A stretch of DNA of 33,950 nucleotides from Ignavibacteriales bacterium CG07_land_8_20_14_0_80_59_12 (GCA_002779395.1 PEWR01000122.1:1-33950), one strand, 5' to 3'. Positions 1,787 to 21,165 are shown, counted from the first letter of the stretch. The notes: a model not told the origin generated them from the letters alone. Made by a program: numbers and translations.

Positions 1787-2713
1787 ATGCCGATTGACCT
1801 TAATCCGGGCACACGCCGCGGACAGTATTATCGCCCGAGCTTTCTCGGGGGCGGATTCGGTTTCTTTCCCCCCGTGATCAAGGTCCTCCTCCTCATCAAC
1901 GTAGGAGCGTGGCTTTTCCTCTGGTTCTTCGGGACCTTCGGGATCGACGGATATCCGCTCCGACTCTACGTCTATGAGCTCTTTGGGCTGCGCCCGATCG
2001 GTGAAGGGTTCTGGCTGTGGCAGCTTGTCACGTACATGTTCCTCCACGAGGGACTCGGCCACGTCTTTTTCAACATGTTCGCCCTCTGGATGTTCGGGAC
2101 GCAGCTCGAGAACGACTGGGGTTCACGGAAGTTCCTCACGTACTACATGGTGACGGGGATCGGGGCGGGGTTGAGCAACCTGCTCGTCGCGCCCCTCTTC
2201 GCAACGCCGATGATGACTATCGGCGCGTCTGGTGCCGTGTACGGCATCCTCATCGCATTCGGCATGCTCTACCCGGAGCAGCCGATCTACCTCTACTTCC
2301 TCTTTCCCATCAAGGCAAAGTACTTCGTCGGCTTCTACGTCCTCCTCGAGCTTTTCTCCGGGGTGACGGGGACAACGGACGGGATTGCCCACTTCGCGCA
2401 TCTCGGCGGCGCGCTCGTCGGATTCCTCTACATCATGCTTGACCGCCGCGGCTATGCGCTCGATGAGTACCTGGCGCGCCTGAAGGCACGATGGGAAGCG
2501 CGTCACCGGTCCCCGCTGAGGTACGTCCGGCGGGACGACGAGGTGGTCGATGCGAAATTCGAGGATGTCGAGGAGCGCCAGAAGAGGGAGAAGGAGCAGC
2601 TCCAGCACCGGGTCGATGAGATCCTCGAGAAGATAAGCAAGTCGGGCTATGCAAACCTGACTGAGGAGGAGAAGCAGATTCTCTTTAATGCGAGCAAGAA
2701 ACTTGATGTGTGA
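1787..2713 (+). CDS. Rhomboid family intramembrane serine protease with a charged C-terminal (DUF6576-like) extension
   Basis: GASGAVYGIL (GxSG), HFAHLGGALVGF catalytic His region, multiple TM segments, C-terminal helix ending ...LTEEEKQILFNASKKL. Confidence 0.92.
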   Translation: MPIDLNPGTRRGQYYRPSFLGGGFGFFPPVIKVLLLINVGAWLFLWFFGTFGIDGYPLRLYVYELFGLRPIGEGFWLWQLVTYMFLHEGLGHVFFNMFALWMFGTQLENDWGSRKFLTYYMVTGIGAGLSNLLVAPLFATPMMTIGASGAVYGILIAFGMLYPEQPIYLYFLFPIKAKYFVGFYVLLELFSGVTGTTDGIAHFAHLGGALVGFLYIMLDRRGYALDEYLARLKARWEARHRSPLRYVRRDDEVVDAKFEDVEERQKREKEQLQHRVDEILEKISKSGYANLTEEEKQILFNASKKLDV

Positions 2714-2728
2714 AACGAAGGGCTGGAG

Positions 2729-3835
2729 ATGAATAGCGGAGATGCGGCGGGCATCGGGAGTGCGGTGCGCACGGGTATCCGGCGGCGTTCCCGGCGCGTG
2801 ATGGTGGGCGGCGTGCCGATTGGCGGCGACGCACCGGTGTCGGTTCAATCGATGACGAAAACGAAGACCGGCGACATCGAGGCGACGGTTGCGCAGGTCC
2901 TGGCGCTCGAAGAGGCGGGGTGCGACATCATCCGGATCACGGTGAATGACCGGGAAGCCGCTGACGCCCTTCCCGCGATCGTGCGGCGCGTCCACATTCC
3001 TGTTGTGGCCGACATCCATTTCAACCACGTATTCGCCCTCAAGGCCCTCGAAGCCGGAGTCTCGAAAGTAAGGATAAACCCGGGGAATATCGGGAGCCGC
3101 GACCGCATCCACGAGGTTCTCCGCGCCGCAAGAGAGCGAGGGGTTCCGATCCGGATCGGAGTGAACTCCGGCTCCCTTGAGGAGGACATTCTGGAGAGAC
3201 ACGGGTACCCGACCGCGGAGGCGCTCTACGAGAGCGCGATGCGACACGTGGAGATCTGCGAGGAGTTCGGCTTCAGCGACATCGTTATCTCCGTCAAATC
3301 GACGGACGTCCGTCTCATGATCGACGCCTACCGCCTCGTCGCGGAACGGACCGACTACCCGCTTCACCTTGGTGTGACGGAAGCGGGGACAACGCGTGTA
3401 GGCACGGTCAAATCAGCGGTCGGCATCGGAGCGCTTCTCGCCGACAGGATCGGAGACACGATCCGCGTCTCGCTCACCGATGATCCCGTGAAGGAGATCG
3501 AGGTCGGGAAGGAGATTCTCCGGTCGCTCGGCCTCGCGACGAGAAACGTTGAGCTCATTACCTGTCCGACCTGCGGCCGGCTGGAGGTCGATCTTTTCAG
3601 CATCACGCGCGAGCTTGAAGAGGCCCTCGGACATCTGAAGAAACCCGTGAAGGTCGCCATACTCGGCTGTGCCGTGAACGGCCCCGGGGAGGCGCGCGAA
3701 GCCGACATCGGCGTTGCCTGCGGCAAGGGTGTCGGCATCCTGTACCGGAAGGGTGAGGTCCTTCGGCGTGTGAAGGAGGAAGAAATCGTCTCTGCGGTCA
3801 TCGAAGAGGTGATGAAGTTCCAGCCGGAGACGTGA
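2729..3835 (+). CDS. ispG: (E)-4-hydroxy-3-methylbut-2-enyl-diphosphate synthase (MEP pathway)
   Basis: VQSMTKTKTGDIEATVAQV, GVSKVRINPGNIG, CPTCGR and AVNGPGEA motifs. Confidence 0.97.
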   Translation: MNSGDAAGIGSAVRTGIRRRSRRVMVGGVPIGGDAPVSVQSMTKTKTGDIEATVAQVLALEEAGCDIIRITVNDREAADALPAIVRRVHIPVVADIHFNHVFALKALEAGVSKVRINPGNIGSRDRIHEVLRAARERGVPIRIGVNSGSLEEDILERHGYPTAEALYESAMRHVEICEEFGFSDIVISVKSTDVRLMIDAYRLVAERTDYPLHLGVTEAGTTRVGTVKSAVGIGALLADRIGDTIRVSLTDDPVKEIEVGKEILRSLGLATRNVELITCPTCGRLEVDLFSITRELEEALGHLKKPVKVAILGCAVNGPGEAREADIGVACGKGVGILYRKGEVLRRVKEEEIVSAVIEEVMKFQPET

Positions 3836-16603: not shown

Positions 16604-16984
16604 CTACTTCGCCTTTTCGACTTTGTCAATATCTATGACTCTCACGCCCCCGCGCTCGGAGACTGTCCCGCTGGCGGTCACGTTCTGCGCGATGAAATCG
16701 TAGAGCTCGGACTTTGCCGGCATGTGTCCCTTGACGGCGACGTACACCTTCCCGGACTTGTCAAGGATGCCGATCGGGAGCCCGTTGTTGACGCACATCT
16801 GGGCACACTCCTTGTGCCCATCCCCCTTGGCACCGGCGCTCGCGTAGCAGGTAATGTCGATTACTTCTCCCGTGATTGTCTTCTTGTTCTTCGGATCGCC
16901 CGGGTAACCCTTTGTGAACACCGGGTTGATGACAAGAAACGCGAGGAGTGCAACAGCAACGGCGGCAACATGCATTCGCTTCAT
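16604..16984 (-). CDS. Small exported protein with conserved-looking Cys/His motif (CYASAGAKGDGHKECAQMC)
   Basis: N-terminal signal peptide MKRMHVAAVAVALLAFLVINPVFT, then ITGEVIDITCYASAGAKGDGHKECAQMCVNNGLPIGILDKSGKVYVAVKGH...; followed by a strong terminator. Confidence 0.75.
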   Translation of the reverse strand: MKRMHVAAVAVALLAFLVINPVFTKGYPGDPKNKKTITGEVIDITCYASAGAKGDGHKECAQMCVNNGLPIGILDKSGKVYVAVKGHMPAKSELYDFIAQNVTASGTVSERGGVRVIDIDKVEKAK

Positions 16985-17243: not shown

Positions 17244-18293
17244 ATGGATAAGAGAATCGTCTACCTGGACAGGAACGAGAACCAGTATGGACCTGCTCCG
17301 AATGTCTTTGATCTCCTTTCTCGACTCGATAAGGAATCACTCTGCATCTATTCCAAGGATTTTGAACGCGGTGTCAAGAGCCGGCTTACGGAACGGCTCG
17401 CGAGGGACTACGGTGTCCCGGAATCGCAGATCATTCCGGGTTACGGCTCCGAAGATCTCCTGAAGCAGGTTGTCCACTGCTATGTGGGTCCGGGGAAGGC
17501 GGTCATGATCCCGAACCAGTCGTGGTGGTACTACAAGAAGCTCGCCGGTGAGGTGGGAGGCATCCAGGTTGAGTACTCCCTGAGGACAAACGGCAGCACC
17601 TTCGAGTACGACCTCGGCCACATGTTCGATCTTTTCCAGCGACACCATCCGAACGTCGTCCTCATCGGTTCACCCAACAATCCGACGGGGAACTCGCTCG
17701 GCCGCGAGCATCTCGAGCGGTTGCTGGAAGGAATGAAGGGGACAGTTGTCGTCCTCGACGAGGCCTATCTCGGCTTCTCCGGCTCGAAGAACCACTATGC
17801 AAAGGCCCTCATCGAAGCTCATCCCAACCTCGCAATCCTCAGAACGTTTTCCAAGTACTATGCCCTCGCCGGGGTCCGGATCGGCTACGCCTTCGTCGGC
17901 AAGGATCTCCCTGAACTTGTGAACTTCAGCGCACGGTATCTCGGCTACAACCGTCTCTCCGAGGAGATTGCCATCGCGGCGCTCAACTCGGAGGCGTACT
18001 ACGAGGGAATCCGGCAAAAGATGATTGAGGATAAGGAGATGTATTATCGCGGGTTCGACGGGCTGCCAGGATTCACAGCATACCGTTCGGACGCGAACTT
18101 CATACTCGTCGAGCATCCCGCCAGGCTCAAGCAGGCGATCAAGGAGTCGCTCGAAGCCCGGGGTGTCCACGTGAAATTCTTCAACGAAGCGCAGTTCATC
18201 AACCACATGCGCATCACACTCGGGACGCAGGAACAGAACCGGCTTGTCATGGAGACCATCACAGCAGCGGTGAAAGTCCCCAATGTGGCTTGA
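17244..18293 (+). CDS. HisC/CobD-like class I/II PLP-dependent aminotransferase or decarboxylase
   Basis: DRNENQYGPAPNV, SPNNPTGN, VVLDEAYLGFSG, RTFSKYYALAGVRIGYAF (PLP lysine region). Confidence 0.85.
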   Translation: MDKRIVYLDRNENQYGPAPNVFDLLSRLDKESLCIYSKDFERGVKSRLTERLARDYGVPESQIIPGYGSEDLLKQVVHCYVGPGKAVMIPNQSWWYYKKLAGEVGGIQVEYSLRTNGSTFEYDLGHMFDLFQRHHPNVVLIGSPNNPTGNSLGREHLERLLEGMKGTVVVLDEAYLGFSGSKNHYAKALIEAHPNLAILRTFSKYYALAGVRIGYAFVGKDLPELVNFSARYLGYNRLSEEIAIAALNSEAYYEGIRQKMIEDKEMYYRGFDGLPGFTAYRSDANFILVEHPARLKQAIKESLEARGVHVKFFNEAQFINHMRITLGTQEQNRLVMETITAAVKVPNVA

Positions 18294-19158
18294 CGACTAC
18301 AGGCGTTCGCTGAAGCTCCCCGCCGCGGAAGAGGTGTTTGACCTGATCATATACCGCCCGCTGGCTTTCCTCTTCGTCCAGCTCGTTCTGCCGACCTCTC
18401 TCACACCCAATGCGATCACGATCACCGCCATGCTGCTCGGGGTCGCGGGGGCGTATCTCTTCTCGTGGCATGGCCCGGCCGCTCTTACCGTAGGAGCGGT
18501 TCTCATCGGCCTCTACAACGTCCTTGACTGCGCCGATGGTCAGCTCGCCCGCCTCAAGCGAAACGGGACCGTGCTCGGCCGGGTGCTTGACGGTGTGATC
18601 GACTATGTCGTCAACATCGCCCTCTACTTCTTCATCGCAGTCGGTCTCGCACATACTTCCCCTGACCCGGTTGGGATCTGGATCCTTGCAGGGATCGCTG
18701 GCGTCAGCACCGGCATCCAGGCAATGCTCTTCGACTACTACCGGAACGAGTTCCTAGGCTCCGTTTTCTGCCGCGGCGACGCCACGGCGGAGGAGTTCGC
18801 CCGGTTCAGCGCCGAGGCCCACAAGCTTGAGAGAAGGCGGATATGGACCGCCCGGCGCGTTCTCATCATTGTCTATCTCGCCTACCTCGGCCTCCAGCGC
18901 CAGCTGGGCAGCCGTGGTGTGGTACTCCGTCAGCGGGTGTCCCCTGTGCAGTACTATCAGAGCAACCGGATCCTCATCAGGCTCTGGAGTTTCATCGGTT
19001 CCACAACGCATGTCACCCTCCTTATCGCCGCAGCCCTCATCGGCAGGCTTGACATCTACTTGTGGGTTGTCGCCACCTTCGGAAATGGATGGATGTTCCT
19101 TCTCCTCATTCTCCAGTATCGCACCGAGCAGGCGCTCATCGCGAGATCCCAATCCTGA
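18283..19158 (+). CDS. CDP-alcohol phosphatidyltransferase family membrane protein
   Basis: Full CDP-OH-P transferase motif DCADGQLARLKRNGTVLGRVLDGVID (DxxDGxxARx8GxxxDxxxD); 11-bp overlap with the upstream gene suggests translational coupling. Confidence 0.92.
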   Translation: MWLDDYRRSLKLPAAEEVFDLIIYRPLAFLFVQLVLPTSLTPNAITITAMLLGVAGAYLFSWHGPAALTVGAVLIGLYNVLDCADGQLARLKRNGTVLGRVLDGVIDYVVNIALYFFIAVGLAHTSPDPVGIWILAGIAGVSTGIQAMLFDYYRNEFLGSVFCRGDATAEEFARFSAEAHKLERRRIWTARRVLIIVYLAYLGLQRQLGSRGVVLRQRVSPVQYYQSNRILIRLWSFIGSTTHVTLLIAAALIGRLDIYLWVVATFGNGWMFLLLILQYRTEQALIARSQS

Positions 19159-19166
19159 AGGATTCC

Positions 19167-19904
19167 ATGAAAGCTGTCATCGTCGCCGCAGGCACATCGT
19201 CGCGCCTGCGCCCTCTCACGGACGCCGTCCATAAAACGCTCCTGCCGGTCGGGGCGAAGACCATCCTCGACCGCCTTGTTGGAAACCTCCTCCAGTGTGG
19301 AATTCGCGACCTAGTCGTCGTGACAGGGTACCGGGCCGACCAGCTTCGAGCCGCGCTGGCGGGACGCGACGACCTCAGTGTGTCGTTCGTGCATAACTCC
19401 GAGTTTGCCGAGACAAACAACGCTTACTCTCTCTTTCTTGCCAGGCGGGAGATCGGTAATGAACCGTTCATCCTCCTCGACAGCGACATTGTGTTTGACC
19501 CTGCGATCCTCCGGCGTCTTCTTGATTCCCCGCAGCCGGATGCACTTGTCCTGCGGACGACCGGCGAGATCGGCGATGAGGAGATCAAGGTTGCTCTCGA
19601 TGGGGCCGGACGCGTGGAGCGCATAGGGAAAGATGTTCCCCGGGGTGAAGCGAAGGGGGAATCCATCGGCATTGAAAAGTTTGGCAGCGCCGGGCCAGCC
19701 CTGTTCAACGCTCTTCAACGACGGGTTGAGGAGGGGAACGGCCGGAACGAGTTCTACGAAGCGGCGTTCCAGGAGATCATTGACGCAGGAATCCCGCTCG
19801 GGACAGTCGACACGGAGAGCCTTCTCTCCATCGAGATCGACACCCTCGACGACCTCGCGGCTGCGCGCCAGGTGGTCCACCGCTGGTTCAAGGATGATGG
19901 ATAG
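19167..19904 (+). CDS. LicC/PntC-like NTP (probably CTP):phospho-alcohol nucleotidyltransferase
   Basis: AVIVAAGTSSRLRPLTDAVHKTLLPVG, NSEFAETNNAYSLFLAR, LLDSDIVFD, GRNEFYEAAFQ; TNN-YSL-LA signature resembles phosphocholine/aminoethylphosphonate cytidylyltransferases. Confidence 0.85.
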   Translation: MKAVIVAAGTSSRLRPLTDAVHKTLLPVGAKTILDRLVGNLLQCGIRDLVVVTGYRADQLRAALAGRDDLSVSFVHNSEFAETNNAYSLFLARREIGNEPFILLDSDIVFDPAILRRLLDSPQPDALVLRTTGEIGDEEIKVALDGAGRVERIGKDVPRGEAKGESIGIEKFGSAGPALFNALQRRVEEGNGRNEFYEAAFQEIIDAGIPLGTVDTESLLSIEIDTLDDLAAARQVVHRWFKDDG

Positions 19905-20093
19905 ATGCGAGATGCGAAATACCGGTACGAAGAGTCGCTGAAATCTCCCCTCTCCGACGAGCTTGTCAATACCTGCCTCCTCCGCCCAGTCGCGGGGCAG
20001 ATCACCAGAATCCTTTACCCGACCCGGATCACTCCGAACGGTGTCACGGCTGCTTCACTATTGGCGAGGACCGCCCTCGCGAGCGATTCTTGA
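19905..20093 (+). pseudogene. Truncated second CDP-alcohol phosphatidyltransferase (N-terminal ~50 aa only)
   Basis: YRYEESLKSPLSDELVNTCLLRPVAGQITRILYPTRITPNGVTAASLL aligns by eye with the start of the intact copy (DYRRSLKLPAAEEVFDLIIYRPLAFLFVQLVLPTSLTPNAITITAMLL), then diverges and stops before the catalytic DxxDG motif. Confidence 0.65.
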
Positions 20094-20127: not shown

Positions 20128-21165
20128 ATGAGTGTGATCCTCGGCATCGAAACGTCCTGCGATGAGACCTCTGCGGCGGTCCTGCGGGACGGCATATTGC
20201 TCAGCAACGTGACGAAAACGCAGCTTGTGCACCACCGGTACGGCGGTGTGGTTCCGGAGATGGCGTCCCGGGCGCACCAGAAGCTCATTGTCCCGATCGT
20301 CCGTCAGGCCCTCGAGACCGCAGGCGTCCGCATCGACGAGATCCACGCGGTTGCTGCAGTGTATGGGCCCGGGCTCATCGGGTCTCTCATTGTCGGGCTT
20401 AACTTCGCAAAGGCGTTTTCGCTTGCACGCGGTATCCCCTTCATCGCGGTGAACCACCTCGTCGCCCACCTCTACTCGAACTTCCTTGAAGAGGATAAGC
20501 CCGAGTTTCCCTACGTCGCATTGATCGTTTCCGGCGGTCACACAATCCTCTCATTCGTTGAGGCTCCCTTCGTCCATCGGGTCCTCGGAGAGACACGAGA
20601 TGACGCGGCGGGAGAGGCCTTTGACAAGGTCGCAAAGATGCTGGGTCTGGGTTATCCCGGAGGGCCGGCCATCGACCGCGCGGCGATGGAGGGGGATCCG
20701 GCATACGTCAGCTTCCCCCGGGCAGATATTGGGGGCGCGTACGAGTTCAGCTTTAGCGGGATCAAGACCTCGGTCCTCTACCACCTCCGGAAGAACGGGC
20801 TCCTGCCTGGGAACGGGAAGCGTGTGGAACCGCCGGTGCTGAACCACATTGCCGCGAGCTTCCAGGCGGCCGTTGTTGATGTGCTCACGAAGAAGACCGT
20901 CCGCGCCGCCGGGGAACACCGGGTCAGGCATGTGACGGTCTCCGGGGGCGTCGCGGCGAACAACGCGTTGAGGAAAAGCCTGCGAGGGGAGCTTTCGGCG
21001 CGAGGCATCGCGCTTCACATCCCACGGATGGATTTCTGCACCGACAACGGCGCCATGACCGCCTATATCGGTATGCTGCGGTTGGAGCGCGGAGACCACT
21101 CACCTCTCGACGTGGGCCCGGCGCCGAGCATTGACCTCGTGGATGAAGTGATCTGCCATGCGTGA
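20128..21165 (+). CDS. tsaD: tRNA N6-adenosine threonylcarbamoyltransferase
   Basis: ILGIETSCDETSAAVL, GGVVPEMASRAH, NHLVAH (metal-binding His pair), SGGHT, SGGVAANNALR. Confidence 0.97.
   Translation: MSVILGIETSCDETSAAVLRDGILLSNVTKTQLVHHRYGGVVPEMASRAHQKLIVPIVRQALETAGVRIDEIHAVAAVYGPGLIGSLIVGLNFAKAFSLARGIPFIAVNHLVAHLYSNFLEEDKPEFPYVALIVSGGHTILSFVEAPFVHRVLGETRDDAAGEAFDKVAKMLGLGYPGGPAIDRAAMEGDPAYVSFPRADIGGAYEFSFSGIKTSVLYHLRKNGLLPGNGKRVEPPVLNHIAASFQAAVVDVLTKKTVRAAGEHRVRHVTVSGGVAANNALRKSLRGELSARGIALHIPRMDFCTDNGAMTAYIGMLRLERGDHSPLDVGPAPSIDLVDEVICHA

Follow-up and report, generated by a model that had tools for sequence, protein, structure and literature searches.

To our knowledge, nearly all bacterial aminophospholipid synthesis proceeds via CDP-diacylglycerol (PssA/Psd) or from scavenged choline. 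The CDP-ethanolamine branch of the eukaryotic Kennedy pathway (PCYT2 and EPT1/CEPT1) takes a different course, in which a kinase phosphorylates ethanolamine, the phosphoester is converted to a CDP-amino-alcohol, and a CDP-alcohol phosphotransferase moves the head group onto a lipid. Treponema denticola has a CDP-choline pathway that consists of LicAC and a CDP-OH-P transferase acting on diacylglycerol (PMC6805115). In the cytidylyltransferase PntC, alanine substitution of R15, K25, or K153 leaves less than 10% of the activity, and E104 and E196 face the amine of aminoethylphosphonate (PMC6697681). An alternative inositol-lipid cluster containing NTP, CDP-OH-P, HAD, and MIPS genes has been proposed in Bacteroidetes (PMC9246714). 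Finally, the available text on Campylobacter Cj1436 and Cj1437 describes enzymes that make ethanolamine phosphate or serinol phosphate (PMC12409886).

The locus analyzed here lies in a window of 33,950 nucleotides (the window being the whole stretch of DNA that was analyzed) and contains genes for a PLP enzyme, a CDP-alcohol phosphotransferase (CDP1), and a nucleotidyltransferase (NTP), which are referred to below as the trio (Table 1). We propose that the trio makes an amino-alcohol head group, activates it with CDP, and transfers it in a self-contained, Kennedy-like pathway, a reading that we consider reasonably probable.

The ORF coordinates and Pfam matches confirmed the three-gene cassette described in the original prediction, with an 11-bp overlap between the PLP enzyme and CDP1 genes and an 8-bp gap between the CDP1 and NTP genes. 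All three products scored above the Pfam cut-offs (Aminotran_1_2 [PF00155], 136 bits; CDP-OH_P_transf [PF01066], 42 bits; NTP_transf_3/NTP_transferase, 59/55 bits). The complete CDP-OH-P motif reported for the second gene and the TNNAYSLFLAR signature reported for the nucleotidyltransferase were both present. The mechanically called NTP ORF has an earlier start, at a GTG. The end of the cassette, which had been placed at 20093, required correction because NTP stops at 19904; the excess is a 62-aa ORF (19905-20093) in which part of another transferase gene (CDP2) survives as a remnant that had been overlooked. The true start of the tsaD gene is probably at 20128.

Table 1. Features of the trio locus, with coordinates counted from the first nucleotide of the window
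Feature	Coordinates	Strand	Length	Assignment
PLP enzyme	17244..18293	+	349 aa	Fold-type I; distinct HisC/CobD-superfamily clade; proposed phospho-amino-alcohol source
CDP1	18283..19158	+	291 aa	Integral-membrane CDP-alcohol phosphotransferase; catalytic motif complete
NTP	19167..19904	+	245 aa (from ATG at 19167)	LicC/PntC-like; proposed CTP:phospho-amino-alcohol cytidylyltransferase
CDP2 remnant	19905..20060 (end approximate)	+		About 50 codons from the N terminus of a second CDP-alcohol phosphotransferase

CDP1 matched PF01066 with 42.3 bits (cut-off, 22) and carried the complete motif DCADGQLARLKRNGTVLGRVLDGVID, which has the form D-x2-DG-x2-AR-x8-G-x3-D-x3-D. The motif residues D82, D85, G86, A89, R90, G99, D103, and D107 were invariant in 13 orthologues of A3, and the AF2 model of CDP1 (pLDDT, 91) consisted entirely of helices. 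When the transferases CDP1 and CDP2 (TRANSFERASES) were compared, the CDP-OH-P motif was found to be complete in both. For CDP1, the Archaeoglobus CDP-alcohol phosphotransferase AF2299 ranked first by both profile and structure, and for CDP2 it ranked first by profile, at a low identity of 17-19%; inositol-phosphate enzymes came next, and eukaryotic choline and ethanolamine enzymes were weak matches.

The ATG of the CDP2 remnant directly follows the NTP stop codon, the frame ends at 20093, and the remainder of the gene is missing. The remnant was 67% identical over 46 aa (E, 1e-15) to the intact CDP2 of a related genome (G002; L053:8066-9007), and the similarity was then lost. None of the four PF01066 matches of the window's genome was an intact CDP2. 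The truncated gene is therefore either a remnant or an assembly fault in an assembly of 148 contigs. Intact CDP2 genes were located immediately 3' of NTP in L053, L056, L064, L065, L005, L132, L136, L139, and L140, and relatives carried CDP1, CDP2, or both. The retention of both transferases in some genomes suggests that one activated head group may be delivered to two acceptors.

In full-length profile comparisons against the PDB, NTP (CYTIDYLYLTRANSFERASE) matched LicC with 100 bits and PntC with 92 bits, and other nucleotidyltransferases scored 61 bits or less. Specificity for sugar phosphates, which the original prediction had named as a point that would count against it, found no support here: the LicC and PntC profiles were best, sugar enzymes scored much lower, and the amine-contact residues were kept. 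Residues R13, K23, K155, D105, and E198 were invariant in 25 trio orthologues. In the alignment, R13, K23, and K155 corresponded to PntC R15, K25, and K153, and D105 and E198 corresponded to PntC E104 and E196; the LicC column at 105 is off by one in the MAFFT alignment, and the HMMER alignment puts LicC D105 there. The same alignment provided two controls. The NTPs of PEP-mutase clusters (L006 to L008) had H105 and T198, and those of inositol-type clusters (L100 to L102) had T105 and a gap. The amine-contact acidic pair was absent from the NTPs of both kinds of cluster, and therefore the pair tracks amine-bearing substrates. The residue comparisons offer good support for the view that NTP would be suited to an amine-bearing phosphoester.

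As had been noted in the original prediction, no PEP mutase is located near the trio, and other phosphonate genes were not recognized there either. The PEP mutase model TIGR02320 gave no match over its cut-off in 16 genomes, 15 of which were PLP genomes; the sole weak match, below the cut-off, came from a genome without the PLP enzyme (G032). Since no PEP mutase was found in the PLP genomes, the substrate of NTP is most likely a phospho-amino-alcohol. The archaeal PEP-mutase clusters with NTP homologues contain an Fe-alcohol dehydrogenase, from which we infer that they act on hydroxyethylphosphonate. No choline/ethanolamine kinase was recognized next to the trio, where most neighbors were read by eye.

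The PLP enzyme had been described as HisC/CobD-like, and model searches and structure comparison upheld the fold, although they did not assign the protein to either family. It scored 228.9 bits against TIGR01141 (HisC; cut-off, 276.55), its best family match, and 137.1 bits against TIGR01140 (CobD; cut-off, 290.55). When the AF2 model (pLDDT, 89) was used in a Foldseek search, bacterial and plant HisC proteins headed the list (TM, 0.73-0.86), and CobD came next (TM, 0.81-0.82). Judging from the model, the PLP enzyme is a member of the HisC/CobD branch of fold-type I. In a tree with the HisC-like proteins of the class, the PLP family formed a single clade with a support of 100/100, and a wide score gap separated the family from HisC. 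The fold-type I residues N146, D172, Y175, K204, R212, and R323 were invariant in the 25 PLP orthologues; hence, the PLP lysine and its surroundings were in place. Invariant residues of the clade were W94, W95, Y96, Y97, K204, K311, and R323, and the hisD-linked HisC proteins examined had an Arg at the place matching K311. The WWYY block (94-97) and K311 are specific to the clade and probably mark a remodeled pocket that would still bind an anionic substrate. The N-terminal motif LDRNE..GP is HisC-like. The reaction may be a decarboxylation or a transamination, as the LDRNE N terminus and a HisC score above the CobD score leave the latter open.

The original prediction had suggested the co-occurrence of the trio in relatives as a check, and the association proved to be strong. 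We searched 61 genomes of the class for both the PLP enzyme and NTP, and PLP orthologues were counted at about 46% identity or more. The PLP enzyme was present in 15 genomes and NTP in 16, with both in 15, NTP only in 1, and neither in 45 (Fisher test, p = 2e-13, uncorrected for phylogeny). When 396 genomes of the phylum were searched with a profile, the PLP family proved to be confined to the class (17 matches with 448-602 bits; next match, 172 bits). This search yielded ten further PLP genomes, all of which had NTP. Thus, NTP was present in 25/25 genomes bearing the PLP family, and these genomes span families f1, f2, f3, f6, f9, f12, f13, f17, and f19 of the class. Outside the phylum, the profile detected no PLP orthologue in the genomes of L006, L009, L011, and L012.

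The PLP, CDP-OH-P, and NTP genes were side by side in 18 of the 25 PLP loci. Five loci had PLP-CDP1 only, and at two the PLP gene stood by itself, CDP1-NTP being located at another site; in the split genomes, the link between the PLP enzyme and NTP is one of co-occurrence only. Three gene orders were observed (PLP-CDP1-NTP, PLP-NTP-CDP2, and CDP1-PLP-NTP-CDP2). Because gene order varies and membership is kept, the association looks functional, as opposed to leftover synteny. As exceptions to the coupling, NTP and CDP2 were found without a PLP orthologue in the G032 genome and without a PLP enzyme in the 16.7 kb examined at L005. The genes flanking the trio were variable housekeeping genes, and no glycan or solute genes recurred. 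In families f9 and f19, a gene for a LysE-like membrane protein is located directly upstream. GAPDH-like and phosphoglycerate-kinase-like genes, as read by eye, immediately precede the PLP gene in f13 genomes.

In the proposed pathway, the PLP enzyme would draw on a central metabolite to make a phospho-amino-alcohol; the most probable reaction is the decarboxylation of O-phosphoserine to phosphoethanolamine. NTP would then use CTP to form the CDP-amino-alcohol, a step that is well supported by the residues described above. CDP1, as its fold and motif suggest, would transfer the phospho-amino-alcohol to a lipid hydroxyl, such as that of diacylglycerol, with the release of CMP; the acceptor lipid and the lipid produced are both predictions. 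We favor the conversion of phosphoserine to phosphoethanolamine on two grounds: phosphoserine is commonly present in metabolism, and Cj1436, according to the available text, shows the chemistry (PMC12409886). That the head group is specifically phosphoethanolamine is a tentative proposal, to which we give somewhat less than an even chance. Compared to the original prediction, the proposed pathway retains the unit of PLP family, NTP, and CDP-alcohol phosphotransferase and the CDP activation of an amine substrate, and it drops the phosphonate option.

The trio genomes also contain pssA and psd, and the idea that the trio is the sole PE route was rejected for this reason. The presence of PssA and Psd counts against our main reading to the extent that a second route to PE would call for an explanation. 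Given these two enzymes, the trio would add a lipid and not replace PE synthesis; its product is probably a distinct lipid, or goes to a distinct acceptor, beside the existing PE. A more far-reaching version is that a new PLP family supplies a de novo CDP-amino-alcohol pathway for an undescribed aminophospholipid (e.g., one with a serinol or isopropanolamine head or a non-diacylglycerol acceptor), with two transferases serving two acceptors. We regard this version as conceivable and more doubtful than not. With regard to a possible sphingolipid acceptor, the serine palmitoyltransferase model gave a match below its cut-off in nearly every genome of the class and thus did not distinguish genomes with the trio from those without it.

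Several other explanations were considered, and most concern the PLP enzyme. It could be the organism's histidinol-phosphate aminotransferase in an accidental neighborhood, an objection anticipated in the original prediction, since it is the only HisC-like match (E <= 1e-12) in its own genome and, among the family models, matches TIGR01141 best. However, no histidinol dehydrogenase (HisD) was found in 14 of the 15 PLP genomes tested, including that of the window, and in the one PLP genome with HisD (G052), a separate, ordinary HisC adjoins HisD. Together with the score below the HisC cut-off, the clade separate from hisD-linked HisC, and the presence of NTP in every PLP genome, these findings led us to reject this explanation, which has hardly any chance of being correct. 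An aminotransferase of another kind is a more serious candidate. Such an enzyme would convert a DHAP-type phosphorylated ketone to serinol phosphate, and the head group would be serinol or another amino alcohol. The HisC-like N terminus and the higher score of HisC models than of CobD models are in line with this idea, but score and motif likeness do not fix the reaction type, and the NTP residues specify an amine, not which amine. The gene pair before the PLP gene in f13 is a weak pointer in the same direction, and the available text on Campylobacter describes Cj1437 as an enzyme that converts a dihydroxyacetone substrate to serinol phosphate (PMC12409886). Overall, we consider the aminotransferase unlikely, though with an appreciable chance. 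The structural likeness to CobD raises another candidate, a CobD-like decarboxylation of O-phosphothreonine giving an (R)-1-amino-2-propanol head group. Known CobD enzymes make aminopropanol phosphate, but this route requires a dedicated L-threonine kinase, and none was recognized on inspection of the clusters. Moreover, no CobD above the family cut-off was found in the 61 genomes, and we view this route as improbable.

The remaining explanations concern the head group and its acceptor. The closeness of NTP to PntC and the archaeal NTP homologues in PEP-mutase clusters would fit a phosphonate head group, which the original prediction had allowed; the PLP enzyme would then act as an aminoethylphosphonate transaminase. 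This option was rejected because PEP mutase was absent from the 15 PLP genomes tested, and the archaeal homologues have other residues in place of the amine-contact pair; its likelihood is very low. Alternatively, the CDP-amino-alcohol could be real but be used on a polymer, either soluble or at the surface (compatible solute or glycan), instead of a membrane lipid. The second profile match of CDP2 was 4mnd, which we take to be an archaeal IPCT-DIPPS enzyme, and archaeal IPCT-DIPPS uses the same two enzyme types for a soluble phosphodiester product. On the other hand, CDP-OH-P enzymes act mostly on lipids, and the neighbors of the trio vary without recurring glycan or solute genes. We consider a polymer acceptor rather unlikely.

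The route that the three enzymes would form appears to be new, in that a HisC/CobD-type PLP enzyme has not previously been described as the first step. Our literature search found no description of the PLP family or the gene set, and a search among papers available without subscription for a serine-phosphate decarboxylase tied to CDP-ethanolamine returned nothing relevant beyond the Campylobacter work. If the proposal is correct, a self-contained Kennedy-type route, present in no fewer than nine families of a single bacterial class, would represent a new form of membrane head-group synthesis. A function would thereby be assigned to proteins that are liable to be annotated as histidinol-phosphate aminotransferases in organisms apparently without histidine synthesis. 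Finally, the pathway predicts a specific, testable lipid in organisms that carry the trio.

The trio shares with the Kennedy CDP-ethanolamine branch the sequence of phospho-amino-alcohol, CDP-amino-alcohol, and lipid. In contrast to that branch, the phosphoester would be made by a HisC/CobD-type PLP enzyme; the cytidylyltransferase belongs to the LicC/PntC family, and CEPT1 is a weak profile match to CDP1. T. denticola likewise combines a bacterial LicC-type cytidylyltransferase with a CDP-OH-P transferase to produce a phospholipid, but it scavenges choline, phosphorylates it with LicA, and uses no PLP enzyme. At the position of LicC D192, NTP carries E198. Around LicC Trp136, which we take to be part of an aromatic box, the aligned region of NTP contains no aromatic residue. 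With respect to PntC, all five functional positions are kept in kind (R15, K25, and K153 are identical, E104 is D, and E196 is E); the system around PntC differs in its PEP mutase and phosphonate genes. The closest known chemistry appears to be that of Campylobacter Cj1436 and Cj1437, which we liken to the PLP enzyme by their described reactions; Cj1436 is presumably a PLP enzyme of the same superfamily. According to the available text, the Campylobacter product amidates capsule glucuronate, and no CDP activation is described there (PMC12409886). In its logic, the trio comes closest to the alternative inositol-lipid cluster proposed in Bacteroidetes, which also activates and then transfers, although MIPS takes the place of the PLP enzyme there and the NTP of such clusters is without the amine-contact residues. 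Inositol-type clusters of the class itself (L100 to L102) contain CDP-OH-P proteins that are homologous to CDP1 (25-28% identity).

The gene for the second CDP-alcohol phosphotransferase (CDP2) was uninterrupted in many relatives but was truncated in the window (see the table). On another contig of the same genome (C44; locus L104, from ~868), the frame of phosphatidylserine decarboxylase, which belongs to the standard phosphatidylethanolamine route, contained a single in-frame TAG; a run of N lay beyond the TAG, and pssA came next. The TAG could reflect an error in sequencing or assembly; alternatively, the gene may be broken.

In families f9 and f19 of the same bacterial class, a LysE-type membrane protein gene was located immediately 5' of the trio (PLP enzyme, CDP1, and cytidylyltransferase). 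PF01810 was matched in the two LysE-type proteins scanned, and it is possible that the f9/f19 protein is a transporter tied to the trio pathway. In families f13 and f6 (L059-L063 and L066), a rhomboid protease gene adjoined the cytidylyltransferase gene, followed in most cases by ispG/GcpE; the same rhomboid-ispG pair was present in the window, ~15 kb upstream of the trio. The gene between polA and the trio encodes a small, probably secreted protein that matched nothing in Pfam.

Features and their coordinates
Feature	Location	Strand	Context
CDP2 remnant	window 19905-20060		immediately 3' of cytidylyltransferase gene
LysE-type gene	L133:8161-8961; L137:6119-6922; also L134, L135, L138		immediately upstream of trio
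Rhomboid-ispG pair	window 1787-3835		
126-aa protein	window 16604-16984	-	between polA and trio
Phosphonate cluster	L006:4268-9415		archaeal (UBA543)

The archaeal cluster contained a PEP mutase-nucleotidyltransferase fusion, an Fe-alcohol dehydrogenase, a LicC-like nucleotidyltransferase, a CDP-OH-P protein, and, probably, the halves of phosphonopyruvate decarboxylase, a gene content that suggests a CMP-activated phosphonate lipid. Three further clusters, of the inositol type (L100, L101, and L102), combined a nucleotidyltransferase, a HAD-like protein, and a remote CDP-OH-P homologue of CDP1; myo-inositol-phosphate synthase was also present in L100 and, as judged by eye, in L101. These three clusters are akin to the alternative inositol-lipid cluster proposed for Bacteroidetes (PMC9246714).
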